Source: an uncultured Rhodanobacteraceae bacterium (lineage in GTDB: Bacteria; Pseudomonadota; Gammaproteobacteria; Xanthomonadales; Rhodanobacteraceae). Taken from it: DNA of 20,288 nucleotides. Below, piece by piece: positions 4,876 through 20,288 of the stretch. The stretch lies in assembly GCA_937902695.1 (NCBI GenBank), contig CALFNI010000370.1, positions 1-20,288 of the forward strand. Reading direction: 5' to 3'. The notes below the pieces were generated by a model. It did not search any database and was not told the DNA's origin. It saw nothing but the letters and a program-made list of their open reading frames with translations. How positions within the stretch are numbered: position 1 is the first letter of the stretch; every line of letters begins with the position of its first letter. Made by a program: the position numbers and the translations under genes.

Positions 4876-5568
4876 TCAGGCGAACCGGCTGGTCAGCGCG
4901 GAGGCGGCGACGAAGGCGCGGATATGACGCGGCGCACCATGCCAGGCGAGGGCGCCCAGAAACCCCGTCGCCGGTTCGAGCAGCCAAACGCGCCAGTCGG
5001 CGAGCGTGCCCGCCTCCGGCGCGGCATCGGCGATCGCCGATGGCCTTCCGGTGGGGTCGAGATCGAACGCGATGCGGTCGAGCCCGAAGCTGATGCCCGC
5101 GCCCAGCGCCTTCAACACCGCTTCCTTGCAGGTCCACAGGCGAATGAACGCCGGCGTGCGCAGCGCTTCGTGCAACCGGTCGAGCGCATCGGCTTCGCGC
5201 CTGGAGAAAAAGCGATGGGAGAGGTCGTGCGGCTCGAGCTTGCGGTCCGCGCGTTCCAGATCGACGCCGAGCGGCTGGCCGCGCGCGATCGCGATGAGCG
5301 CGTGGTCGCGCGCGTGGCTGAGGTTGAAATCGATGCCGGCGAGCGCCGGCGCGTACGGCTTGCCGCGTCCCGTGCGCGCGATGACGGGCGGGTGATCGAG
5401 CCCGGCATAGCTCGCGAGCAACCGGCCGAGCAACGCATGCGCTGCTGCCGCGACCGCGCGGTGATCGGGCGCATGTTCGATCGCGAGCAGCCAGACGTGC
5501 ACGGACGACTCATCGAGCGCGGGTACCGACTCGGTGTGCGCAAAAGCGGCGGCTTCGAGGGTCTGCAT
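4876..5568 (-). CDS. Sfp-type 4'-phosphopantetheinyl transferase
   Basis: This 230-aa protein would transfer the phosphopantetheine arm of CoA to a serine of carrier proteins, in the cytoplasm. Family motifs are all present and in order: GRGKPY at 67-72, NLSHARDH at 82-89, LGVDLE at 100-105 (Mg-binding Asp103 and Glu105) and LWTCKEAVLKALG at 144-156. The length fits the Sfp/AcpT class rather than the short AcpS class. The ATG at 5568 has no clear ribosome site. The gene lies 26 bp after acs on the same strand, so co-transcription and perhaps translational reinitiation are likely. No carrier-protein, PKS or NRPS gene lies in the window, so its target is elsewhere. Both enzymes touch CoA metabolism, but a functional link is inference. 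Confidence 0.9.
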   Translation of the reverse strand: MQTLEAAAFAHTESVPALDESSVHVWLLAIEHAPDHRAVAAAAHALLGRLLASYAGLDHPPVIARTGRGKPYAPALAGIDFNLSHARDHALIAIARGQPLGVDLERADRKLEPHDLSHRFFSRREADALDRLHEALRTPAFIRLWTCKEAVLKALGAGISFGLDRIAFDLDPTGRPSAIADAAPEAGTLADWRVWLLEPATGFLGALAWHGAPRHIRAFVAASALTSRFA

Positions 5569-5594: not shown

Positions 5595-7535
5595 CTACTT
5601 CACCAGCCGCTCGTCGACGAGGCTCTTGACGACCGACGGATCGGCCAGCGTCGAGATATCACCGAGCGCCTCGGGTTGATTCTCGGCGATCTTGCGCAGG
5701 ATCCTGCGCATGATCTTGCCCGAGCGTGTCTTGGGAAGTCCCGGCGCCCATTGCAGCCAGTCCGGCGTCGCTATCGCGCCGATTTCCTTGCGCACCCAGG
5801 CGACGAGCTCCTTGCGCAGCGCATCGCTCGGCTGCTCGCCCGACTTCAGCGTGACGTACGCATAGATGCCCTGCCCTTTGACGTCGTGCGGCGCGCCGAC
5901 GACCGCGGCTTCGGCGACCTTCGCGTGCGCGACGAGCGCGCTCTCGACTTCGGCCGTGCCGAGGCGATGGCCGGAGACGTTGATGACGTCGTCGACGCGG
6001 CCGGTGATCCAGTAGTAGCCGTCGTCGTCGCGGCGCGCGCCGTCGCCGGTGAAGTACGTGCCGGGATAGGTCTTGAAATACGTGTCGATGAAGCGCTGGT
6101 GATCGCCATAGACGGTGCGCATCTGGCCCGGCCACGAATCGGTCAGCACGAGATTGCCTTCGCAGGCGCCGTGCTGGACGTTGCCGGTGGCGTCGACGAT
6201 CGCCGGCTGCACGCCGAAGAACGGCAGCGTCGCCGATCCGGGTTTCTGCGCGATCGCACCGGGCAATGGCGTGATCAGGATCCCGCCGGTTTCCGTCTGC
6301 CACCAGGTGTCGACGATGGGACAGCGGCCATCGCCCACGACGCGGTGATACCACTCCCATGCTTCGGGATTGATCGGCTCGCCGACCGTGCCGAGCAGGC
6401 GCAGCGACGTGCGCGACGCCTTCTTCACCGGCGCTTCGCCCTCGCGCATCAGCGCGCGGATCGCTGTCGGCGCCGTATAGAAGAGCGTCACCTTGTGCTT
6501 GTCGACGACGTTCCAGAAGCGCGAGAAATCGGGATAATTCGGCACGCCCTCGAACATCAGCGTCGTCGCGCCGTTCGCGAGCGGACCATACAGCAGGTAG
6601 CTGTGTCCGGTGACCCAGCCGACGTCGGCCGTGCACCAGTAGACGTCGTCGTCGCGAAGATCGAACACGCATTCGTGCGTGTAGCTGACGTAGACGAGAT
6701 AGCCGCCCGTCGTGTGCAGCACGCCTTTCGGCTTGCCGGTGGAACCGGATGTGTAGAGGATGAAGAGCGGATCCTCGGCGTTCATCGGCGCCGGCGCGCA
6801 TTCGGTGGATTGGCCTTCGATCAGCGCATGCCACCAGCGGTCGCGCGGCGGCTGCATTGCGATGGCGCCGCCCGTGTGCCTGACGACGATGACGGTTTCG
6901 ACGCTGTTCGTGCCGGGCCGCGTCAGTGCCTCGTCGACGTTGGCCTTCAGCGGAATCTTCCTGCCGCCGCGCACGCCTTCGTCGGCCGTGATGACGAGCT
7001 TGCACGTCGAATCGGCGATGCGGCCCGCGAGCGAATCGGGCGAGAAGCCGCCGAACACGACCGAATGCACCGCGCCGATGCGCGTGCACGCGAGCATCGC
7101 GATCGCAGCTTCGGGAATCATCGGGAGATAGATGCAGACGCGATCGCCCTTGCGGATGCCGAGATTCTTCAGGAGATTCGCCGCGCGGCACACGTCGGCA
7201 TGGAGCTCGCCAAAGCTGATGCGCCGCGACACGTCAGGATCGTCGCCTTCCCAGATGATCGCGGTCTTGTCGCCGAGCCTGGCGAGGTGGCGGTCGAGGC
7301 AGTTCGCGGAGACGTTCAGCGCGCCGTCGTGGAACCAGCGGATGTGCAGGTCGTCCGCATCGAACGATACGTCCTTGACCTTGCTGTACGGCGTCATCCA
7401 GTCGAGCCGCTTGCCGATGCGCCGCCAGAACTCTTCGGGATCGCGCAGCGATTCGGCGTAGAGCCGCTCATAGGTCGGCTCGTCGATGCGCGCTTTGGCG
7501 GCGAAGGCGGCGTCGAGCGGATGGGCCTCGGTCAT
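5595..7535 (-). CDS. acs: Acetyl-CoA synthetase (AMP-forming)
   Basis: This 646-aa enzyme makes acetyl-CoA from acetate, ATP and CoA through an acetyl-AMP intermediate; E. coli Acs is 652 aa. Motifs seen include the P-loop [11 protein letters not shown] (about 261-271), the acetate-pocket segment [10 protein letters not shown] (about 409-418), YFTGDGA, the hinge region [18 protein letters not shown] (from about 512) and the C-terminal [10 protein letters not shown], with catalytic Lys607. That lysine is the residue reversibly acetylated in known Acs proteins. I chose the ATG at 7535 because a GAGGAA ribosome site lies 5 nt upstream; the in-frame ATG at 7625 has no such site and would add 30 residues unlike the family. 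It heads a probable operon with the phosphopantetheinyl transferase and works with the aceBA genes further right in growth on acetate. Confidence 0.97.
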
Positions 7536-7775
7536 GGCGGTTCCTCGGGCGGGGGTGGCCGGCGTCACGATTCCGTAACGCGGCGGGCGCACTGGTTTTG
7601 CGAAGACTTTAAACTCGAACGCCACTCATGGCGATGGGGAGATAGCCATCTCCGGTGCTGCGGCGGGGAACGCAGGACTGACGACGGGTCACCGGCGCAT
7701 CATCGTCGCGTCGAGCATCGGCACCGTTTTCGAGCGGACGACTTCTCTCCGTACGGTTCGCTCGGGGCCGAAGTG
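7536..7775 (-). promoter_or_regulatory. Upstream region of acs with a small dyad
   Basis: This spacer should hold the acs promoter. It has the ribosome site GAGGAA (7541-7546), an A/T-rich stretch at about 7606-7613, and a perfect GGAGAT-AGCC-ATCTCC dyad (7638-7653) about 100 bp upstream of the start codon that may be an operator or a 5'-UTR hairpin. No confident -35/-10 pair was found. Confidence 0.35.
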
Positions 7776-8460: not shown

Positions 8461-8641
8461 CGCACGTCCACCCCTCTTGCTGCGTCGACGCGCAAGCTAG
8501 CAGAAATGCGGCGCGCCGGCGCCGCGACCGATCCGGGAATCCGTCGGCCGCGCAATGGGTGACTTCGGCACAACGATCGCGCAGCAACGCGCGCCCGCCA
8601 TTCACCGTCCCGATCGTACGATGCGCGCGGAGACGTATCGG

Positions 8642-9259
8642 ATGGATTACCCCTCGCAACTCGCACTCGCCGGCAGCCTCGCCTGGGCCAGCGGCATCCG
8701 CCTCTACGCGACGATCTTCATCGTCGGCCTGCTCGGCCGGCTCGAATACCTGCATCTGCCCGAGCCCCTGTTCGTGCTCGAGCACACCTGGGTGCTGGCG
8801 GCGTCCGGGATCATGGTGGCCGGCGAGTTCTTCGCGGACAAGGTGCCGGGATTCGATTCGGTCTGGGACGCGATCCATACGTTCGTGCGCATCCCGGCCG
8901 GCGCGTTTCTGGCGTGGGGTGCGATGGGCGACGCGACGCCGGCCGCGCAGACGGCCGCGGCGATTCTCGGCGGCCTCGTCGCGGGCGGGACGCATCTTGC
9001 GAAAAGCGGCGGGCGCGCCGTCATCAACACCTCGCCCGAGCCGCTCAGCAACTGGACGCTCAGCTTCGGCGAGGACGGCCTCGTGCTCGGCGGGCTCTTC
9101 CTCGCGGTCACGCACCCGCTTGCGTTTCTCGTGCTGCTCGCGCTGTTCCTCGCGCTCGTGATCTGGCTGCTGCCGAAGCTGTTTCGCGTGCTCGCGGGGA
9201 TGTTCCAGAAGCTGCGATCGCGCGATGGCGACAGCACGATGCCGGCGGCGCGCGGCTGA
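8642..9259 (+). CDS. DUF4126 family membrane protein
   Basis: This 205-aa protein begins at the ATG at 8642, where the conserved region LALAGSLAWASGIRLYATIF follows directly and a GGAGA lies 9 nt upstream. In-frame ATGs at 8555 and 8621 would add residues unlike the family. Four or more hydrophobic segments (about 10-30, 46-64, 86-122 and 148-187) place it in the inner membrane. A polar segment with HLAKSGGRAVINTSPEP sits between the third and last hydrophobic blocks. The family is widespread and of unknown function. It is flanked by a divergent small membrane-protein gene and a convergent LysR gene, so it is probably transcribed alone. Confidence 0.82.
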   Translation: MDYPSQLALAGSLAWASGIRLYATIFIVGLLGRLEYLHLPEPLFVLEHTWVLAASGIMVAGEFFADKVPGFDSVWDAIHTFVRIPAGAFLAWGAMGDATPAAQTAAAILGGLVAGGTHLAKSGGRAVINTSPEPLSNWTLSFGEDGLVLGGLFLAVTHPLAFLVLLALFLALVIWLLPKLFRVLAGMFQKLRSRDGDSTMPAARG

Positions 9260-9390: not shown

Positions 9391-10392
9391 TCAACGCTCC
9401 GAGTGCCCCGCTTCCCAGTAATCGCGGCGCGTGAACAGGCCCGGACGGATCAGGTCGACGAACGCGCGGGCGTCGGCGGAGAGGTATTTCCCCTTGCGCA
9501 CGACGACGCCGTACGTGCGCTGCGGAAAATACGCGCTCATGTTGCGCACGGCGAGGCGCGCGTGATCGCCCTCGCCGATGCAGATGCCGGTCACGACCGA
9601 GATGCCGAGCCCCATCGCGACGTACTGCTTGATGACCTCCCAGCCGCCCACCTCGATCGCGACGCGATACGGCACCTTGCGCTGCTGGAAGATCAGGTCG
9701 ACGAGGCGGTATGTCGTGAGCCGTTGCGGCGGCAGGATCAGGCCGAACGGCGAGAGATCCTCGAGGCGAACGTCCGGTTTCGCCGCGAGTGGATGATCGA
9801 GCGGCAGGATCAGCATCGGATCGTACGAGTACACGGGCTCGTAGCTGAGATCGTTCGGCACGTCGAGCATCGAGCCGATCGCGAAATCCACCTGGTCGGA
9901 GCGCAGCAACGCGAGCCCGTCCTTGCCGGTGACGTTGTGGAGCTGCAGCTTCACCTCGGGATACTGCTCGCGGAATGCGCGCACGAGCGAAGGCAAGAGA
10001 TATTGGATCGTCGATGCGCCGGCGGCGAGGTTGAGCTCCCGGCCGGCCGGCCCCGCGTTCAGCGCGCGGAACTGCCGATCGAGCGAATCGAGTCCTTCGA
10101 CGAGCGGCAATGCGAGCTCGTAGAGCGCCTGTCCCTCGCGCGTCAGCGCGACACGGCGCCGGCGCCGCTCGACGAGGCGCGCGCCGAGCTCCTTCTCGAG
10201 CGCCGACAGCTGCAGGCTGACCGACGGTTGCGACAGGAACAGCGCCTCGGCGGCGCGCGACAGCGTGCCGAGCTTTGCGATCGTGCAGAACGCCCGCAGC
10301 TGCTTCAGCCGGTTGCCCTTGTAATAAAAGCGCGTCGCCGGCGGCGGCGAAGGGTGGCTGGCGCGGGCCTTGCGGTCGGATTTGCGTGCCAT
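9391..10392 (-). CDS. LysR-family regulator divergent from aceBA
   Basis: This 333-aa regulator has an N-terminal winged helix-turn-helix (about 28-88, with FCTIAKLGTLSRAAEALFLS and QPSVSLQLSALEKELGARL) and a periplasmic-binding-protein-like effector domain (about 110-315). The first 25 residues are a basic, Pro-rich extension. I chose the ATG at 10392; a TTG at 10410 is in frame but lacks better support. It is divergent from aceB, with 155 bp between the two start codons, the classic arrangement for a LysR protein that controls its neighbour and itself. Control of the glyoxylate bypass is inferred from this layout. The effector is not deducible. Confidence 0.9.
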   Translation of the reverse strand: MARKSDRKARASHPSPPPATRFYYKGNRLKQLRAFCTIAKLGTLSRAAEALFLSQPSVSLQLSALEKELGARLVERRRRRVALTREGQALYELALPLVEGLDSLDRQFRALNAGPAGRELNLAAGASTIQYLLPSLVRAFREQYPEVKLQLHNVTGKDGLALLRSDQVDFAIGSMLDVPNDLSYEPVYSYDPMLILPLDHPLAAKPDVRLEDLSPFGLILPPQRLTTYRLVDLIFQQRKVPYRVAIEVGGWEVIKQYVAMGLGISVVTGICIGEGDHARLAVRNMSAYFPQRTYGVVVRKGKYLSADARAFVDLIRPGLFTRRDYWEAGHSER

Positions 10393-10401
10393 CGAACGGC
10401 T

Positions 10402-10500
10402 ATCCGTCAATTCGGTCGCTGCTTAAACCTAGATCCGTCAATGCGTTAGACATTACATTAACGTTGTCAATTTGTTGCATTGAAACATGTGCTTTGTCAA
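10402..10500. promoter_or_regulatory. LysR/aceB divergent control region with four GTCAA repeats
   Basis: Four same-direction GTCAA elements start at 10406, 10437, 10466 and 10496, which are 31, 29 and 30 bp apart, close to three helical turns. The first two share ATCCGTCAAT and the last two share TTGTCAA. A GACA-N12-TGTC dyad spans 10449-10468. The stretch is markedly more A/T-rich than its surroundings. It is the likely binding region of the LysR protein and of RNA polymerase for aceB, but no single -35/-10 pair stands out. Confidence 0.5.
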
Positions 10501-10547
10501 ATGTCGCCCGCATCCCTAGGCTTCGCTTCCCACATGGATCGTTCGAG

Positions 10548-12140
<1,593 letters not shown>

Positions 12141-12180
12141 CGGTTTGCCTGCCAACCGCCTTCCATCGAACGAGACTGCC

Positions 12181-13485
12181 ATGAAGAACTCGCTGCCGAC
12201 CGTCGATCAGATCAAGCTGGACTGGGCCAACAATCCGCGCTGGAACGGCGTCAAGCGCAACTACACGGCCGACGACGTCGTGCGCCTGCGCGGCACGGTG
12301 CACGTCGAGCATTCGCTCGCGCGCATCGGCGCCGAGAAACTCTGGGGCTACCTGCAGCGGGAGCCGTTCGTCAACGCGCTCGGCGCACTGACCGGCAACC
12401 AGGCGATGCAGCAGGTCAAGGCAGGGCTGAAGGCGATCTACCTTTCGGGCTGGCAGGTTGCGGCCGATGCGAACGTCGCCGGCGAGATGTATCCGGACCA
12501 GTCGCTCTATCCCGCGAACTCGGTGCCGATGGTCGTCAAGCGCATCAACAACGCGCTGCTGCGTGCCGATCAGCTGAACCACGCCGAAGGCAACGACAGC
12601 ATCGATTACCTGCAGCCGATCCTCGCCGATGCCGAAGCCGGTTTCGGCGGCGTGCTCAATGCGTTCGAGCTGATGAAATCGATGATCGAGGCGGGCGCTG
12701 CCGGCGTGCACTTCGAGGATCAGCTCGCGTCGGTGAAGAAATGCGGCCACATGGGCGGCAAGGTGCTCGTGCCGACGCGCGAGGCGGTGGAGAAACTCAA
12801 CGCGGCGCGTCTTGCGGCCGACATCGCCGGCGCGCCGACGATCCTGGTCGCGCGCACCGACGCCGAAGCGGCCGATCTCCTGACCAGCGACGTCGACGAG
12901 AACGACAAGCCGTTCTGCACCGGCGAGCGCACGGTCGAAGGCTTCTACAAGACGCAGAAGGGTCTCGATCAGGCGGTCAGCCGCGGCCTTGCGTATGCGC
13001 CATATGCCGATCTCGTCTGGTGCGAGACCGGCAAGCCGGATCTGGAGTTCGCGCGCAAGTTCGCCGAAGGCATCCACGCGAAGTATCCCGGCAAGCTCCT
13101 CGCGTACAACTGCTCGCCGTCGTTCAACTGGAAGAAGAACCTCGACGACGCGACGATCGCGAAGTTCCAGAAGGAAATCGCGAGCTACGGCTACCGGTTC
13201 CAGTTCATCACGCTGGCCGGCTTCCACGCACTCAACTATTCGATGTTCGATCTCGCGTATCACTACGCGCGCAACCAGATGAGCGCGTTCGTCGAGCTGC
13301 AGGAAAAGGAGTTCGCTGCGGCCGATCGCGGCTTCACGGCCGTGAAGCACCAGCGCGAAGTCGGCACGGGTTATTTCGACGCGGTGACGCAGGCGATCCA
13401 GCAAGGCCAGTCGTCGACGACGGCGCTGAAGGGCTCGACCGAGGACGAGCAGTTCCACGTCAAGCGCACGCCGCACGCGGCGTAG
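12181..13485 (+). CDS. aceA: Isocitrate lyase
   Basis: This 434-aa enzyme splits isocitrate into succinate and glyoxylate, the first step of the glyoxylate bypass, and passes glyoxylate to malate synthase encoded just upstream. The catalytic signature KKCGH is at 186-190, with nucleophile Cys188. The metal-binding region ADAEAGFGG is at 149-157, [11 protein letters not shown] at 224-234, and an NCSPSFNW substrate loop lies further on. Length and motifs fit the E. coli-type enzyme (434 aa). The ATG at 12181 is 40 bp after the aceB stop, and only a weak GAGA precedes it. A GC-rich hairpin begins at its stop codon. Confidence 0.97.
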
Positions 13486-13837: not shown

Positions 13838-14503
13838 CTACGTCGTGTCGTTGCGGATGCCGCTCACTGCGTTTGCATCGACTGCGCGCACGCCGCGCAT
13901 CAGCACGTCGGTCAGACGATCGACGTAAGTCTCGTCGCTGATGCCGCGCCACGACGGCATGTGCGGACGAAGGCGCGCGGTCTGCGAATTGAACAAGGTC
14001 ACGCCGAGCATCAGCGAGGCGACGACGGTCGGATCCGCATCGGCGCGGAACACGCCCGCGTCGCGCGCAGCGCGTACGTGCGCGACGACGTTGTCGAAGA
14101 GCCGCGACAACACCGGCAACACCGGACCCGATTCGGCGAGGTCCGGATTGCCGGTCACTTCGCGGAACACGAGCCGCGCCGTCGCCGGATGCGCGCACAG
14201 GTAGTCGTGATACCAGACGAGGAAATGCGGCACCTGCAACGCCGGATCGGCTTCGGCCGAAAGGTGCCGCTCGATCTCCTCGCCCAGCGCCTCGCACGAG
14301 CGGGTCAGCACGGCGTCGTAAAGCGCCTGCTTGGTCGCGAAGTGATGGAACACGTTCGCCTTGCACACGCCCGCCTGGCGCGCGACGTCGCTGATCGCGA
14401 CGCCGTCGAACCCGCGTCCGGCGAAGAGCCGCTCGGCCGCGCCAACGATGCGGTCGAGTGCGGGAACGCCGCCGGGCGAGGGCACGGTGTCGGGCATGGA
14501 CAT
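13838..14503 (-). CDS. TetR-family transcriptional regulator
   Basis: This is a 221-aa protein from the ATG at 14503; an ATG at 14497 is equally possible, and neither has a clear ribosome site. The N-terminal TetR helix-turn-helix is at about 14-60 (RIVGAAERLFAGRGFDGVAI, then DVARQAGVCKANVFHHFATK). The C-terminal ligand and dimer domain contains VPHFLVWYHDYLCAHPATARL, typical of the family. A frame extending to 14614 exists but would run through the operator and promoter. A perfect palindrome 14 bp upstream points to autorepression. No partner gene is adjacent on its strand. The divergent neighbour is the GGDEF gene 350 bp away. The ligand and targets are unknown. Confidence 0.88.
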   Translation of the reverse strand: MSMPDTVPSPGGVPALDRIVGAAERLFAGRGFDGVAISDVARQAGVCKANVFHHFATKQALYDAVLTRSCEALGEEIERHLSAEADPALQVPHFLVWYHDYLCAHPATARLVFREVTGNPDLAESGPVLPVLSRLFDNVVAHVRAARDAGVFRADADPTVVASLMLGVTLFNSQTARLRPHMPSWRGISDETYVDRLTDVLMRGVRAVDANAVSGIRNDTT

Positions 14504-14516
14504 CTGAAAATTGCAC

Positions 14517-14534
14517 TGACCGATCAATCGGTCA
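14517..14534. promoter_or_regulatory. Probable TetR operator
   Basis: TGACCGATCAATCGGTCA is a perfect inverted repeat of 8-bp arms around a CA centre. It lies between the predicted -10 and the start codon of the TetR gene, where bound repressor would block transcription. Size and symmetry suit a TetR dimer. Confidence 0.8.
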
Positions 14535-14538
14535 GCGC

Positions 14539-14566
14539 ATTCTGAACAAGCCGGACGCCAAGTCAA
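14539..14566 (-). promoter_or_regulatory. Predicted sigma-70 promoter of the TetR gene
   Basis: On the minus strand, TTGACT (14561-14566) and CAGAAT (14539-14544) are 16 bp apart, matching 5/6 and 4/6 consensus bases. Transcription would start at the edge of the operator, about 30 nt before the ATG. Confidence 0.55.
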
Positions 14567-14855
14567 CGGGTTTTTGGTCACGCGGCGCGCAAGCACTTTC
14601 CATCCGCGCGCCATCGCCGTACCGCCCGGACCGCCGTCGGCCCGGCGGACGCCGCCCCGTCGGAAAATCGGACCCGTCCGGCGGGGTTCGCCACCGGGGG
14701 CGCCCCGGGCACCGGATCGAAATCCCGTTCCGCGACCGGGAGATGCGCGCGGCAGGTCAGATATTTCCTACAGCGCGCGGTGGCGCCGTCGGATGAGGAC
14801 TTCCGGCACATACGCTACGATGCAGTCCTCAGCGGGCCCCGAGGGAGGTTCGTAG
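14567..14855. other. Intergenic stretch before the GGDEF gene
   Basis: No gene is supported here. Possible frames lack family likeness and a ribosome site. It should contain the GGDEF gene promoter; a TACGAT at 14816-14821 is a poor -10 candidate without a clear -35. The strong ribosome site GGGAGG lies 7 nt before the GTG start at 14856. Confidence 0.5.
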
Positions 14856-15917
14856 GTGTCAGCCATCGACGCGGAACGCCCCAGCCAGTCCAGCGCCTCC
14901 TTGCACGTGGTGCGCTCGCGCGCCGTTCTGCTGCCCCGCGAGCTCTCGGACGAGGAATGCGCGCTGTTCGCCCGCGTCGGCCGCCGCCGCGAGCTCAAGC
15001 CCGGCGAGGTGATTTTCACGCGCGGCGAGCTCGGTCGCAGCATGTTCATCGTGGAAAAAGGCGAGATCCAGCTCGAGTTCGGCGACGGCATGCCGGACAA
15101 GCTGATCGGCGCCCGCGAGTTCTTCGGCGAGCTTGCGCTCTTCATCGGCAACCACGCCCGCGTCGCGAACGCAGTGGCGGTCGTGCCGAGCGCGCTGATC
15201 GTCGTCGAGCACCAGGCGTTCGACGATCTCATCGTCAAGGAGCCGGGCCTCCTCGCGCAGTTCATGCGCCGCTCGTTTTCGTATCTCGTCGCGAGCGAGC
15301 AGCAGCTGATCCAGAGCCTCAAGCGTCGCAACGAAGATCTGATGGTGACGCTCGATTCGCTTCGCCAGACGCAAACGCAGCTCTCGACCGCGCAGCGCCT
15401 CGTGCAGACTGACGAGCTCACCGGCCTGTGCAACCGGCGCGGCCTCTACATGTTTCTCGAGCATCTCGACGAGCAGCGCCTGCCGGGCACCGTGCTCGGG
15501 CTCCTGCTCGTCGATCTCGACCGCTTCAAGCAGATCAACGACCACTGCGGCCATCTCGTCGGCGATCAGGTGCTGCGCGCGATCGCCGAGGAAGTTTCGA
15601 ACGCGGCCTCGCCGTGCGATCTGCCGTGCCGCCTCGGCGGCGATGAGTTCGCGTTGCTAATGCAGGTCACCGGCATCGAGGAGCTTCGCGCCCGCGCGAC
15701 GCAGATCATCGGCGCGGTGCGCACGCTGCGCTTTCCGGGTTGCGCCGACGAAGCGCTGTCGGTCGCGGTCAGCGTCGGCGGCAGCCTCTGCGCGCATGGC
15801 GCCGACTGGGCCGTCTGGTACAGCGACGCCGATTGCGCGCTCTATGAGGCGAAGGGCATCGGCGGCGACGGCTATCGCGTCATCGAGGGGGCGGGAGCGC
15901 CCGCCGCTCCGGCCTGA
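14856..15917 (+). CDS. cNMP-binding GGDEF diguanylate cyclase
   Basis: This 353-aa protein would make c-di-GMP from two GTP under control of a cyclic nucleotide. A CRP-like cNMP-binding domain covers about 22-130; its phosphate-binding cassette GELALFIGNHARVANA (91-106) keeps Glu92 and Arg102. A coiled-coil signalling helix follows (about 146-183). The GGDEF domain (184-345) has TDELTGLCNRRGL, VDLDRFKQINDHCGHLVGD and an intact RLGGDEF with GGDEF at 261-265. The inhibitory RxxD site is Ser252-Pro-Cys-Asp255, so product feedback is probably lost. No transmembrane segment is seen. It starts with a GTG behind a strong ribosome site. A nucleotide cyclase gene begins 75 bp downstream. This pairing resembles the XC_0249/XC_0250 cGMP to c-di-GMP pathway of Xanthomonas campestris. 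Confidence 0.92.
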   Translation: MSAIDAERPSQSSASLHVVRSRAVLLPRELSDEECALFARVGRRRELKPGEVIFTRGELGRSMFIVEKGEIQLEFGDGMPDKLIGAREFFGELALFIGNHARVANAVAVVPSALIVVEHQAFDDLIVKEPGLLAQFMRRSFSYLVASEQQLIQSLKRRNEDLMVTLDSLRQTQTQLSTAQRLVQTDELTGLCNRRGLYMFLEHLDEQRLPGTVLGLLLVDLDRFKQINDHCGHLVGDQVLRAIAEEVSNAASPCDLPCRLGGDEFALLMQVTGIEELRARATQIIGAVRTLRFPGCADEALSVAVSVGGSLCAHGADWAVWYSDADCALYEAKGIGGDGYRVIEGAGAPAAPA

Positions 15918-15992
15918 TGCCATGCAGCATGCCGCACGGACGTTGATCCCGCCAGGCCGGCGCCGACTCACCCGCGAAGCCAGCGCGCTTGC

Positions 15993-18656
15993 GTGCCGCA
16001 CGATCCGGGCGAACCGTCCGTGAGCGCGGTGCTCAACACGCCCGTACCCGAACGCCGCGACGCGCCGGCGCCGCTGTTGCGCACGCTGGTGCTCTGCGAT
16101 CTCGCCGATTCGACCGCACTCGTCGAGCGCCTCGGCGATCTGCAGGCCGCGGAGCTGTTCCGCAAGCACGATCGTCTGACGCGCACGCTCGTGCACCATC
16201 ACGGCGGTCGCGAGATCGACAAGACCGACGGCTTCCTGATGATGTTCGACCGCCCGATCGAGGCGGTCGCCTTCGCGCTCGCCTACCAGCGCGCGCTGCG
16301 CGGGCTCGACCAGGCCGGCATCGCGCTGCACGCGCGCGTCGGCATCCACTTCGGCGAAGTCATCGCCTGGGACAACACGCTCGACGACATCGCCAAGGGC
16401 GCCAAGCCGTTCGAGATCGAAGGCCTCGTCAAGCCGACGACGTCGCGCCTGATGCAGCTCGCGCTGCCGGGCCAGATCCTGCTTTCGGGCGTCGCCTACC
16501 AGCTCGCGCACCGCGGGCAGGACGAGCTCGGCGTCGTCGCCGGCACGGCGGTCTGGCGCACGCACGGCCGCTATCGTTTCAAGGGCCTGCCCGATCCGGT
16601 CGCGGTGTTCGAAGTCGGCGAGAAGGACATCGCGCCGCTGAAGGCGCCGCCGTGGTCCGGCAAGGCGCATCGCGAAGTGCCGTTCTGGCGGCGCCCGGCG
16701 ACGATGGTCGTCGAGGCTTTCGTCCTGCTCGCGCTCGTCGCGATGCCGCTCTGGTATCTGCTGCGGCCGGAGCCCGCCATCGCGTTCGCGCAGCGCGACT
16801 GGGTCGTCGTCGGCAGCCTCAAGAACCTCACCGACGACACCAGCTTCGACGATTCGCTGCAAACCGCGTTCCGCCTCGGCCTCGAGCAGTCGCGCTACGT
16901 CAACGTGCTGTCCGATCTCAAGACGCGCGACACGGTCAAGCTGATGCAGCGTGATCCGGAGCACACCGAGGTCGATCGTACGATCGGCTCGGAAGTGGCG
17001 ATCCGCGACGGCGCGCGCGCGCTGATCCTGCCGACCGTTGCCGAGATCGGCGGCCGCGTGCGCGTGACGGCCGAGGTCGTCGATCCGCAGACGCAGACGA
17101 CGGTGTGGTCCGAATCGGCCGACGGCGTCGGCGCCGAATCCGTGCTGCCCTCGCTCGACCAGGTGAATCAGAAGCTGCGCGTACGGCTCGGCGAGGCGCT
17201 GGCGACGGTGTCGAGCGAATCGCAGCCGCTCGACAAGGTCGCCACGAAGAACCTCGATGCGCTGCGCGCTTATTCGCTGGCCGAACGAGCCTACGCCGGC
17301 GAGCATCTTGCCGATGCCGCGGCCCTCTACCGGCAGGCGCTCAAGCTTGATCCTGATTTTGCGCTGGCCCACATCGGCCTTGCCCGCACGTTGGTCTATT
17401 CGGACGATCGGCAGCAAGCGACCTCCGAGCTCCAGGCCGCCGGCCGCTCACGCGACCGGCTTTCGCCGCGCGATGCGCTGTTCGTCGAGGCGTGGCAAGC
17501 GAGCCTGCAAGGCTCGCACAAGGTTGCATTGGAAAAGTGGAGGCTTCTTGCGACGCTTTATCCCGATCTGTTCGCGGCGCACGGCCTCTACGCATACTTC
17601 GCATGGCAGTTCGCCAACCGCTACGACGATGAGATCGTCGCGTCGGCAAGGAAGGCTGCCTCGCCGCTGAATGCCTATGCGCCGAAGAGCCTCATGCTGC
17701 TCGGCACGCTTTACGTCGCCAACGGCCGTTTTGACGAGGCAAACGAGCAGTTCGCATTGGCGCGCAAGGGCGGCATGGCGTGGCACGTCGACTATGTTTT
17801 TGCCGACGCGGCGCGGCGTCGCTTCGCCGACGCCGACAAGACGCTCGATCTGGTCCAGTCGTCAGGCGTCGCCTCTCGCGATGTCGATACGCTATTCCGC
17901 CGCATTCTGCTGTCGGCCGACAAGGGCGATTGGGCGGACACATGGACGCAGGTCGACCTGGCCAAGCGCGCGTCGGCGAAAGTCAGCGCGGACGTCCAGC
18001 GCCGGTTTACGCTGGTCGATACCTCGCTGCGCGTTGCCGTCGACCCGGGTTCGATGGAGGCGAAGGCACTGCGCGAACGACTGCGGCCGACGATCGACTG
18101 GCTGCAGAAGGCCAGCGGCGAATATAGGGCCGACGGTCAGCTGGACGCGCTGTTGGCGGCTTATCTGGCTGCACGGGGTGGCGACCTTGATCTGGCCCGT
18201 GACGCGCTCGCGGCCGCGCGGCCGCAAGACGATTATTATCCGGTGCTCACGGATATGTTCACGATCGCCGACGCCGAACGGCAGCGCGCCGAGGGCAAAG
18301 CCGATGAGGCGATCCAGACCCTCAAGCCCACCGTCAACGGCGCGGAGCTCTATTTGACGCACGTCGCGCTGATGGACGCCTACGAATCGGTGAAAAATTA
18401 CAAGAGGGCGCTCGCCGAAGCGCGCTGGCTCGCAGCGCATCGCGGTCGAGCCTACGCGGAGTTCGATCCCAATCGCGTGCCGCTCAACGTCATCGAGTCC
18501 GATCTCGCCACGTTGCACATTGCTGAATACAGCGGAGCGCTTGGCGACAAGGCTGGCGAGCGCCAAGCCCTGGATGACTTCCGCAAACTATGGCCGGGCG
18601 CCCAGGAGCTGCCGTACGTCAAGGAACGCGTCAGGAAGATCCAAACGAAGTCCTAG
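15993..18656 (+). CDS. Membrane class III nucleotide cyclase with TPR-like repeats (putative peptide modification system cyclase)
   Basis: The protein is up to 887 aa. The start is unsure between GTG at 15993 and GTG at 16020, and neither has a good ribosome site. Residues 28-205 are a class III cyclase domain: LCDLADST with metal-binding Asp36, KTDGFLMMF with Asp79, HARVGIHFGEV (113-123) and TTSRLMQLALPGQILLS with Arg152. The usual VN-x-A-x-R segment reads VKPTTSR, so substrate choice (ATP or GTP) cannot be told. A transmembrane helix at about 236-257 is followed by a TolB/FlgO-like domain (about 265-400, with GARALILPTVAEIGGRVRVT) and TPR-like helical repeats (about 410-860), predicted to be periplasmic. 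It follows the cNMP-binding GGDEF gene by 75 bp. Its last 26 bp overlap the peptide gene on the other strand. Codon use becomes less GC-rich from about 17.3 kb. Confidence 0.88.
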   Translation: MPHDPGEPSVSAVLNTPVPERRDAPAPLLRTLVLCDLADSTALVERLGDLQAAELFRKHDRLTRTLVHHHGGREIDKTDGFLMMFDRPIEAVAFALAYQRALRGLDQAGIALHARVGIHFGEVIAWDNTLDDIAKGAKPFEIEGLVKPTTSRLMQLALPGQILLSGVAYQLAHRGQDELGVVAGTAVWRTHGRYRFKGLPDPVAVFEVGEKDIAPLKAPPWSGKAHREVPFWRRPATMVVEAFVLLALVAMPLWYLLRPEPAIAFAQRDWVVVGSLKNLTDDTSFDDSLQTAFRLGLEQSRYVNVLSDLKTRDTVKLMQRDPEHTEVDRTIGSEVAIRDGARALILPTVAEIGGRVRVTAEVVDPQTQTTVWSESADGVGAESVLPSLDQVNQKLRVRLGEALATVSSESQPLDKVATKNLDALRAYSLAERAYAGEHLADAAALYRQALKLDPDFALAHIGLARTLVYSDDRQQATSELQAAGRSRDRLSPRDALFVEAWQASLQGSHKVALEKWRLLATLYPDLFAAHGLYAYFAWQFANRYDDEIVASARKAASPLNAYAPKSLMLLGTLYVANGRFDEANEQFALARKGGMAWHVDYVFADAARRRFADADKTLDLVQSSGVASRDVDTLFRRILLSADKGDWADTWTQVDLAKRASAKVSADVQRRFTLVDTSLRVAVDPGSMEAKALRERLRPTIDWLQKASGEYRADGQLDALLAAYLAARGGDLDLARDALAAARPQDDYYPVLTDMFTIADAERQRAEGKADEAIQTLKPTVNGAELYLTHVALMDAYESVKNYKRALAEARWLAAHRGRAYAEFDPNRVPLNVIESDLATLHIAEYSGALGDKAGERQALDDFRKLWPGAQELPYVKERVRKIQTKS

Positions 18657-18963
18657 GCGGCTTGTTCACGGCTGCCAGGCTTCCCACCGACAGCTTGATC
18701 TGCGGTGGCGCGTGGCAGACGCAGACAGCGGCGACGTTGTCGATCACCTGATACAGCGCTTCCTGGAAGATCTGCGAATCAGCCAGCTTGATCGGTGCCT
18801 GATGCCCCGGCGGCAGCTCGCCCACGATTTTCTCCGGAACGCCGATGTCGCGTAGCGCCTGTACCGGATTGCACTCATAAACCTTCCGGTAGTCGTGGTC
18901 GGCGGCAAGCTTGCGCAGCAGCACAAGCGCATATTCCTTCGGTAGCAGTACGTCGTCGCTCAC
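18631..18963 (-). CDS. Putative modified peptide (RiPP precursor with nitrile-hydratase-like leader)
   Basis: This is a 110-aa peptide from a GTG at 18963, chosen for the AAGGGGGAAAGC just upstream; the frame stays open to 19092 but would cross the predicted promoter. Residues 6-46 resemble nitrile-hydratase-alpha-like leader peptides: ALVLLRKLAADHDYRKVYE, then NPVQALRDIGVP. The second half includes a helix-like ADSQIFQEALYQVIDNV (61-77), a Cys81-Val-Cys83 pair and a Ser/Thr/Pro-rich tail (SVGSLAAVNKPPRTSFGSS), which is the likely core. No Gly-Gly cleavage site is seen. It matches what I remember of the 'putative modified peptide' family found beside a cyclase and a SagB-like dehydrogenase. 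It is convergent with the cyclase gene and overlaps it by 26 bp. The modification and product are unknown. Confidence 0.8.
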   Translation of the reverse strand: MSDDVLLPKEYALVLLRKLAADHDYRKVYECNPVQALRDIGVPEKIVGELPPGHQAPIKLADSQIFQEALYQVIDNVAAVCVCHAPPQIKLSVGSLAAVNKPPRTSFGSS

Positions 18964-19055
18964 GCTTTCCCCCTTCTGCTCCGAAGGCCGCCTGTTCCCT
19001 GGGCCCCTTCGAATCGTGGACCGATAGGCCGGGAGTCCTTTGCGGGCTCCGTGGA

Positions 19056-19084
19056 AGTGTAGTGGCACCGCTCCGGCGCAGCAA
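19056..19084 (-). promoter_or_regulatory. Possible promoter of the peptide gene
   Basis: On the minus strand TTGCTG (19079-19084) and TACACT (19056-19061) are 17 bp apart, with 3/6 and 4/6 consensus bases. They would give an approximately 85-nt leader before the GTG at 18963. The spacer 18964-19397 otherwise holds only the terminator and palindrome listed below. Confidence 0.35.
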
Positions 19085-19120
19085 CAATTCACGGTCCGGA
19101 CGTGGCGCGATCACATACCG

Positions 19121-19150
19121 AAAAAAGCCTCCCCTTTTTCAGGGGGAGGC
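19121..19150 (-). terminator. Intrinsic terminator without an obvious upstream gene
   Basis: On the minus strand the sequence reads GCCTCCCC, an 8-nt loop, GGGGAGGC and six Ts, a textbook terminator. It ends transcripts coming from the right. The only gene there is on the plus strand, so it either blocks antisense reading into the peptide gene or ends an unseen small RNA. Confidence 0.8.
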
Positions 19151-19298
19151 AGGTTTGTCCACGCCAAAAAAACCAGTCGGTCAGGCGCCGAAAGTGCCAA
19201 GCGCGAACCCGCGCGCATGGCCGATGGCGAGACGGCCGAACCGGCGAGCGTTGGAGGCGCGTGACAGGTGAAGCAGTGGCTGCATGCGATCGGCGCAA

Positions 19299-19312
19299 CC
19301 GAAGGCCTTCGG
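19299..19312. repeat. 14-bp perfect palindrome upstream of the dehydrogenase gene
   Basis: CCGAAGGCCTTCGG is fully self-complementary and lies about 85 bp before the dehydrogenase start, followed by a TACACT (19317-19322) that resembles a -10. It may be an operator for this gene, but no regulator is known. Confidence 0.3.
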
Positions 19313-19397
19313 CGCATACACTCTTCTCGGCGAGTTTGACGGGCCTCGAACCGGATGCCGAGGCCATGGCAATGACCTCGGGCGAGAAGGAGCCTAT

Positions 19398-20288
19398 ATG
19401 CGAGCGCGCCGCTGCGCGATTGTCACCATGGAACCGCGGGAAAACCTGGAGTTCAATCTGGCGCTCCTCTCCGAGGGCGGGAACGGTCTGCAAACGGTCC
19501 TAGCGTGGGTCGCGGTCGCGCCGCATACGGGCGGGGAAGTTGCCGTGACCGCCGGCGAAGTCGAATTACTCGGCAAGGTCTCACCCTCCGCCTGGTGCGA
19601 CCTCGACGATCTTGCCGCGCTGCATCCTCCGCTTCTTATCGAGGCGCTCCTTTCGAAAAGCCTGCTGGTTCGGGAAGGTTCCGACGCGGACGGCCGTGAT
19701 CGGCGGCTGCGCGATACGCATTGGCGTAGTGCCTCGGCCGCGATGCACTACGCATCGCGATGGCACGGAGTGGATACCGAAGCCATGGGACGCGAGTTTG
19801 AGGAAGTCAGCGGGCAGACGCTGCTGGAGCGTCTCGGCCCGTCGCCGCCCCCGGTCCGCGAGCGCGTCGATCGAGACCGCCGCATCCGGTTGCCGGCTGG
19901 CGAGGCATCCTCACTCGACGCGCTGCTGGCGCACCGCGCCACCTGCCGGAATTTCGATCGTTCGAGCGCGCTCACGCAGGCGCAATTCGCGGGAGTGCTG
20001 TATCGCACGTACGGCGCGCGCGCAGTCGACGACTTCGCACCGGGCGTGCAGCTTCTCAAGAAGGGCGTGCCGAGCGCGGGCGGTTTGCACGCTACCGAAG
20101 CGTACCTGCTCGTGCAGCGCGTCGAAGGCATCGAGCCCGGGCTCTATCACTATCATCCGGTCGATCATGCGCTCGAGCCGGTCCGGACGCTGACCGCCAT
20201 CGAAGCCGCGACGCTGGCACGTCGCTTCGTCGCGGCACAGGCGTACTTCGTCGACGCGCAGGTGATGGTGATTCCGACGAGCCGGTTC
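19398..20288 (+). CDS. SagB-like flavin dehydrogenase (putative peptide maturation dehydrogenase), partial
   Basis: The frame starts at an ATG at 19398 with an AAGGAG ribosome site 5 nt upstream and runs off the right edge (297 residues seen). Residues 1-165 are a family-specific N-terminal part without a recognised fold. From about 172 the chain matches the FMN-binding nitroreductase/SagB fold: SLDALLAHRATCRNF (with Arg180 and Arg184 as flavin-contact candidates), VPSAGGLHATEAYLLVQ (224-240, the conserved PSAG element) and a GLYHYHP segment. SagB-type enzymes oxidise azolines to azoles in modified peptides. The nearby leader-like peptide makes a peptide substrate likely, but no cyclodehydratase (YcaO) gene lies in the window. 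The first hundred codons use more A/T-rich codons than the rest. Confidence 0.85.
   Translation, partial: MRARRCAIVTMEPRENLEFNLALLSEGGNGLQTVLAWVAVAPHTGGEVAVTAGEVELLGKVSPSAWCDLDDLAALHPPLLIEALLSKSLLVREGSDADGRDRRLRDTHWRSASAAMHYASRWHGVDTEAMGREFEEVSGQTLLERLGPSPPPVRERVDRDRRIRLPAGEASSLDALLAHRATCRNFDRSSALTQAQFAGVLYRTYGARAVDDFAPGVQLLKKGVPSAGGLHATEAYLLVQRVEGIEPGLYHYHPVDHALEPVRTLTAIEAATLARRFVAAQAYFVDAQVMVIPTSRF

Follow-up and report, generated by a model that had tools for sequence, protein, structure and literature searches.

The window studied here is a stretch of 20,288 nucleotides, contig CALFNI010000370.1 (C370) of an uncultured Rhodanobacteraceae genome that is 77% complete, and its downstream end carries four adjoining genes, for a GGDEF protein (plus strand), a membrane cyclase (plus), a precursor-like peptide (minus) and a SagB-like dehydrogenase (plus), which in comparison with relatives look like a chromosomal module in which one half is constant and the other exchangeable. 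The original prediction had read these domains and their order from the sequence, and profile matches confirmed all four genes in their places. The GGDEF protein (14856 to 15917), which resembles XC_0249 of Xanthomonas campestris, joins a cyclic nucleotide monophosphate (cNMP)-binding domain (PF00027, cNMP_binding, 62 bits) to a GGDEF diguanylate cyclase domain (PF00990, 114 bits), and its best match in the PDB is chain 5h5o_A (105 bits). The XC_0250-like cyclase (15993 to 18656) matches TIGR04510 with 871 bits, above the cut-off of 400, and its AlphaFold model has a mean predicted local distance difference test score of 90. Its cytosolic class III cyclase domain (residues 28 to 210; 16074 to 16622) is followed by a transmembrane helix (residues 235 to 257; 16695 to 16763), the N side of which is more positively charged, and by a predicted periplasmic part (16797 to 18650) composed of an alpha/beta domain (residues 269 to 404) and a tetratricopeptide repeat (TPR) solenoid (residues 421 to 886), all on the plus strand. 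Model and fold search support both the cyclase domain and the TPR part; when the whole model was searched, the catalytic domain filled the results, and the TPR part matched generic TPR proteins.

The peptide gene (18631 to 18963, minus strand) converges with the cyclase gene, the 3' ends overlapping by about 26 bases, and diverges from the dehydrogenase gene. Its product of 110 amino acids, with an NHLP-related leader and a variable C-terminal part, reaches 31.1 bits against TIGR04509, slightly below the cut-off of 34; with a profile built from 205 relatives, from which the window's own peptide was excluded, it was recovered at E=1.3e-15 among the 244 open reading frames (ORFs) of the window and, by that profile, is a clear relative. 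The dehydrogenase gene runs from about 19398 to 20288 and beyond (plus strand), so that its 3' end is missing: it matches TIGR04511 with 303 bits (cut-off 240), and the alignment stops at profile position 297 of 380, which coincides with the end of the window.

The last three genes correspond to families already named in NCBIfam as a putative peptide modification system cyclase (TIGR04510), an NHLP-related RiPP peptide (TIGR04509) and a putative peptide maturation dehydrogenase (TIGR04511), so that the peptide-modification gene set is not new. All three families score above their cut-offs in relatives, and in the window two do, the peptide being slightly short; the GGDEF protein, in contrast, is not among the three named families. 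Our literature search returned no experimental study of this set, and no paper linking it with the XC_0249/XC_0250 pathway. What is new here, judging from sequence comparison, is that the periplasmic half of the cyclase co-varies with the peptide and the dehydrogenase, the three forming a single exchangeable cassette.

This joint variation was examined in 212 fetched regions, which combine a sample of the order with a named set and partly share species. Exactly one of each gene was present in 153 of them, and 130 loci were left after the removal of identical cyclases. With the cyclase split into catalytic domain, periplasmic alpha/beta domain and TPR part, mean identities across the 130 loci were 55% for the GGDEF protein, 65% for the catalytic domain, 58% for the alpha/beta domain, 30% for the TPR part, 47% for the peptide leader, 23% for the peptide core and 47% for the dehydrogenase. 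Given the GGDEF distance, the partial correlation coefficient (r) of the peptide core was 0.59 with the TPR part, 0.52 with the dehydrogenase, 0.23 with the alpha/beta domain and 0.17 with the catalytic domain; the TPR part is longer and more widely spread, which may account for some of its correlation with the core. In permutation tests, which ignore tree structure, none of 300 permutations reached the observed value for any pair, the weaker controls included.

The exchange is most evident among close relatives. In the 229 pairs with GGDEF proteins more than 88% identical, TPR identity is bimodal, lying below 50% in 157 pairs, between 50 and 70% in 16 and above 70% in 56. In particular, two Xanthomonas genomes, G446 (locus L125) and Xanthomonas sp. 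3793 (G514, loci L224 and L252), share GGDEF proteins that are 99.7% identical and identical catalytic domains (100%), whereas their alpha/beta domains are only 43%, their TPR parts 23%, their peptide cores 16% and their dehydrogenases 33% identical, the last gene being also inverted. At the DNA level the match is 97.3% over 7155 bases and, after a gap of about 3.6 kilobases (kb), 98.9% over 5337 bases; across the gap, which spans sensor, peptide and enzyme, blastn found no hit at E 1e-3, and the L125/L252 comparison was repeated without the limit of 120 bases below which pieces had been left out of the pair table. Since the cyclase, dehydrogenase and peptide of both G446 and G514 exceed the NCBIfam cut-offs, the replaced segments are diverged alleles and not unrelated DNA. 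When the 157 pairs with TPR identity below 50% were pooled, cyclase identity was 80 to 96% up to about residue 243 and 16 to 50% from residue 424; the blastn blocks, which end at residue 270 or later in all 157 pairs, overshoot, and the protein profile sets the drop nearer the transmembrane helix.

With a threshold of 50% TPR identity, 48 cassette types can be told apart among the order sample's 77 single-copy loci. The nearest neighbour belonged to the same genus, for 64 loci, in 62 cases with the GGDEF protein, 60 with the catalytic domain, 50 with the alpha/beta domain, 44 with the TPR part, 48 with the peptide core and 53 with the dehydrogenase. Thus, as far as these comparisons indicate, the GGDEF protein (the output), the catalytic half of the cyclase and the outer flanks are constant, and the exchangeable cassette is made, in order, of the periplasmic sensor, the peptide and the dehydrogenase. 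A cassette subtype with an inverted dehydrogenase gene occurs in several genera (L098, L104, L106, L118, L125, L128, L138, L222 and L238). Downstream of the dehydrogenase in L114 and L130 (G367 and G474) lie extra TIGR04510-like genes that cover profile positions 206-208 to 810 and do not have the catalytic domain; these sensor-only genes are possible decoy receptors.

The GGDEF protein and the cyclase correspond to the pathway described in X. campestris, where XC_0250 makes cyclic GMP (cGMP) and XC_0249 binds cGMP and then makes more cyclic di-GMP (c-di-GMP), with effects on biofilm and virulence (An et al. 2013, PMC3770947). The TPR domain of XC_0250 is called uncharacterised in that paper and likewise in a 2019 review (PMC8042644). 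The word "peptide" is absent from the main text of PMC3770947, and the accessible portions of PMC8042644, PMC6341742 and PMC5323637, which mention the pathway or its enzymes, refer to no peptide or dehydrogenase beside it. The likeness comprises the same two adjoining genes and domains. Compared with XC_0250 through the residue numbering named in PMC3770947 and not through the XC_0250 sequence itself, the cyclase of Xanthomonas nasturtii (L200) has the residues in register at D41, D71, L73, A150, I157 (L157 in the paper) and A161; the same protein is a TIGR04510 member (1209 bits), with TIGR04509 and TIGR04511 adjoining. The window cyclase keeps the equivalents of D41, D71, A150, L157 and A161 and has F in place of L73. 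On the side of the GGDEF protein, PDB chain 5h5o, which has the published cGMP contacts in register and which we take to be XC_0249 or a close orthologue, found matches of 85 to 97% in 29 of 35 Xanthomonas genomes; the other six gave no match to the cNMP fragment. The contacts F73, E90, L91, H98 and E146 (paper numbering) are kept in all 189 GGDEF proteins compared, the window's included, the latter having L in place of V142. Because the Xanthomonas cyclase fits the XC_0250 numbering and is a TIGR04510 protein, and the contacts are conserved, the pathway of An et al. and the NCBIfam set very probably represent one and the same locus, so that the Xanthomonas parallel drawn in the original prediction appears to be stronger than a parallel. 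Guanylate cyclase activity and cGMP-stimulated c-di-GMP synthesis have been shown for X. campestris only, and for the window they are predicted.

The original prediction had staked itself on co-occurrence of the four genes in relatives, and this was found. Of 398 genomes of the order, an even sample of a larger group, 122 carry the cyclase (E at most 1e-60), 122 the dehydrogenase (1e-30), 123 the peptide (1e-3) and 125 the GGDEF protein (1e-45), in nearly the same set of about 120 genomes: cyclase and dehydrogenase are common to 120, and so are cyclase and GGDEF protein. Two genomes have a cyclase without a dehydrogenase (G549, G655) and two, with weak matches, the reverse (G353, G563). The Xanthomonas genome G563, in which neither the cyclase nor the GGDEF protein gave a match, holds what seems to be a decayed module (L293), in which the dehydrogenase is broken into pieces in several frames and part of a peptide lies close to the end of a contig. 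In a class-wide sample, three of 274 genomes exceeded the cyclase cut-off, all three within the order. The regions fetched for the order sample contain 136 cyclase genes with a length of 1500 bases or more (shorter pieces were left out). The GGDEF gene lies directly upstream on the same strand in 112 of these, and a convergent peptide gene is the first family member downstream in 125; when not a neighbour, the GGDEF gene lies elsewhere in the genome in eight cases (G485, G532, G536, G645, G285, G295, G344 and G508). The arrangement cyclase-peptide-cyclase-peptide-dehydrogenase occurs in L149, L150 and L231, and cyclase-peptide-dehydrogenase repeats stand beside a single GGDEF gene in L089, L091, L092 and L105; these tandem and shared arrangements suggest that cyclase plus peptide is the copied unit.

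Furthermore, the upstream context recurs. In the window a LysR regulator (minus), a malate synthase (plus) and an isocitrate lyase (plus) occupy 9391 to 13485, outside the proposed mechanism, and gene clusters of these types, in which one member each was identified, were present in 87, 92 and 85 of 123 regions, respectively, so that the module is often found at one and the same place in the chromosome. A codon-position filter was applied in this clustering, since antisense ORFs otherwise chain the clusters.

As for the precursor, the peptides reduced to 206 distinct sequences with a median length of 101 amino acids, a conserved leader and a variable C-terminal part. A box of the L-A-S-K type is present in 173 of them (31 in shuffles); cysteines lie mostly mid-peptide, before a conserved SKE box, and 25 peptides are Cys-free. 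G362 (L113) has five closely similar peptide matches, and G508 (L241) has nine matches for the peptide and four for the dehydrogenase. The fold of a full-length relative of the dehydrogenase (L153) resembles McbC, ThcOx and BmdC. With the thiazole/oxazole-modified microcins and the cyanobactins (McbC, ThcOx) the system thus shares the dehydrogenase fold, an fWKY box and a leader-bearing precursor; different from those microcins, YcaO had no match in 35 of the 38 carrier genomes checked, including the window's genome (77% complete), and none in the other five tested genomes of its genus, the genomes with a match being G508, G543 and G579. Azole formation of the classic SagB kind is therefore unlikely.

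Conserved residues, co-occurrence, predicted topology and cassette pattern were seen here directly; modification, export and sensing of the peptide are inferred. We regard as slightly favoured the view that the locus is a chromosomal peptide-signalling module, in which a polymorphic modified-peptide signal is sensed by the cyclase and the exchangeable half feeds the constant one. The N-terminal domain of the dehydrogenase would dock the peptide leader, and the peptide would probably be oxidised without YcaO; the mature peptide would reach the periplasm, where the alpha/beta and TPR part of the cyclase of the same cassette would sense it, and sensing would set cytosolic cGMP synthesis by the cyclase. 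cGMP would in turn set c-di-GMP through the cNMP domain of the adjoining GGDEF protein, as shown for XC_0250/XC_0249, the residues being conserved here. Different cassettes would then represent different specificities of signal, receptor and enzyme on one output, as in ComQXPA pherotypes. Sensing by the periplasmic part of the cyclase, already proposed in the original prediction, gains evolutionary support from the joint exchange, and that earlier interpretation is overall partly supported.

Several observations weigh against this view. Most serious for cell-to-cell signalling is that no exporter was seen: of the 24 commonest neighbour families, 23 were compared with Pfam through a single representative each and yielded none (six representatives were without a Pfam match; the remaining family, with its representative in L117, was outside that comparison), the sole transport protein being a sodium/proton exchanger in 12 regions, and the C39 peptidase, the exporter of C39-exported NHLP peptides, had no match in 18 of 38 carrier genomes, among them the window's genome (77% complete) and the other five tested of its genus. 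The cGMP contact N145 is N in 126 of 189 GGDEF proteins, S in 43 (the window's included) and G in 20. Carrier genomes G362 and G642 have the cyclase without the GGDEF protein, and G301 (a weak match), G377, G382, G504 and G527 the GGDEF protein without the cyclase. The partial r between peptide core and TPR part falls from 0.59 to 0.32 when the dehydrogenase is also controlled for, and block inheritance alone could explain the joint variation. The loss of identity extends to the catalytic domain in some pairs (L112/L245). Finally, peptide cores are below 40% identity in three of 71 pairs with TPR parts above 60%, all among L122, L145, L268 and L275 and with dehydrogenases at 54 to 59%, and the reverse holds in one of 68 pairs.

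The lack of a visible exporter among neighbour families and C39 peptidase matches would be expected if the peptide were a resident cis-regulator, that is, an oxidisable adaptor that stays in the cell envelope and allows the cyclase to report on its own redox or envelope state. The adjoining, convergent peptide and cyclase genes (125 of 136), the flavin-type dehydrogenase of the set and the cysteines ahead of the SKE box agree with it; an internal-state sensor, however, leaves the allelic diversity unexplained, and the 25 Cys-free peptides do not fit, so that we consider it unlikely. Slightly less probable still is an antagonistic or kin-marker peptide, with the cyclase as immunity or danger sensor and an arms race between strains as the cause of diversification. 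Such pairs, too, would be expected to diversify quickly and jointly in receptor, peptide and enzyme, and some loci are rich in peptides (G362 with five, G508 with nine), but the recurring neighbours tested include neither an exporter nor a recognisable immunity gene, 85 to 92 of the 123 regions have related glyoxylate-shunt genes upstream, the GGDEF/catalytic end tracks genus lines, and what the pathway is known to produce is a second messenger of biofilm formation (PMC3770947). That GGDEF protein and cyclase form one pathway, as An et al. explain the Xanthomonas phenotypes by two signalling genes only (PMC3770947), with peptide and dehydrogenase making an unconnected natural product and a variable segment that is a recombination hot spot, is improbable given the near-identical presence and absence of the four families across 398 genomes, an exchanged block that begins within the cyclase gene near the membrane helix, and cyclase-peptide units duplicated together.

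For the signalling module, one of the closest known precedents is ComQXPA of Bacillus, in which enzyme, precursor peptide and receptor are described as polymorphic together, unlike the core gene gyrA, and the polymorphism as defining separate communication groups (PMC4408185). Here, too, modifying enzyme, precursor and receptor sensor are polymorphic as one block while the output is, with exceptions, constant; the locus is not a member of that family, no sequence relationship is claimed, and its host is Gram-negative. ComQXPA signals through a histidine kinase and a response regulator and uses an isoprenyl transferase, whereas here a cyclase with two second messengers forms the output and a SagB-like dehydrogenase replaces the transferase. 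Tentatively, and leaning slightly against it, we put forward the more specific idea of a Gram-negative pherotype system, in which a ribosomal peptide oxidised by a SagB-like, YcaO-free enzyme would be read by the periplasmic TPR part of a guanylate cyclase, with whole cassettes swapped between lineages and the cGMP to c-di-GMP relay fixed, so that biofilm decisions in relatives of Xanthomonas would be taken by signal group. A Pycsar anti-phage reading was rejected: the cyclase had no PADLOC match at E 0.001, the PycC models included, and only the cNMP domain of the GGDEF protein gave weak hits, up to 27 bits.

The window's genome holds a second cyclase-peptide-dehydrogenase set on contig C551 (L088), with the cyclase cut by the contig end and a complete dehydrogenase (493.5 bits against TIGR04511); its peptide is Cys-free and of another type. 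Contig C312 (L298) matches the cyclase catalytic domain alone (149 bits). Upstream of the window's peptide gene (19117 to 19150), an inverted repeat, rich in G+C and with a run of T on the minus strand, looks, by eye only, like a terminator or attenuator; the search for known RNAs in 14300 to 20288 returned a chance match only (RT-15, E 0.71). Allowing one mismatch, CRP/Clp-like sites were present in 6 of 158 peptide-dehydrogenase regions, where mononucleotide shuffles gave 0.3, and in 5 of 156 upstream of the GGDEF gene, where they gave 0.55; these counts exceed those of the shuffles yet are too low for a general rule. The commonest 8-mers ahead of the GGDEF gene seem, on visual inspection, to be coding sequence of isocitrate lyase. 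A prolyl-oligopeptidase-family gene (PF00326), which might trim the peptide, recurs near the module in part of the order, at a distance of about 4.2 kb from the midpoint of the cyclase in 20 of 123 regions (e.g., L108). A contig labelled Rhizobium sp. MAG (L225) carries a module typical of the order studied here, perhaps a binning error. The remaining window genes encode a beta-lactamase-family fragment (PF00144, 3 to 683, minus), a sigma-70-like factor (2301 to 2912, minus), a phosphopantetheinyl transferase (4879 to 5568, minus), an acetyl-CoA-synthetase-like enzyme (5598 to 7625, minus) and a DUF4126 protein (8501 to 9256, plus).

In the accessible accounts, the X. campestris pathway from cGMP to c-di-GMP is without a known input ligand, and the NCBIfam set is without a known purpose; if the signalling module is real, each would answer the other. 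It would also mean that a SagB-like enzyme oxidises a peptide independently of YcaO, and that ComQXPA diversity has a Gram-negative counterpart whose output is second messengers. With a peptide that is predicted from the genes, the locus looks like a private chemical language between bacteria that are relatives of Xanthomonas.
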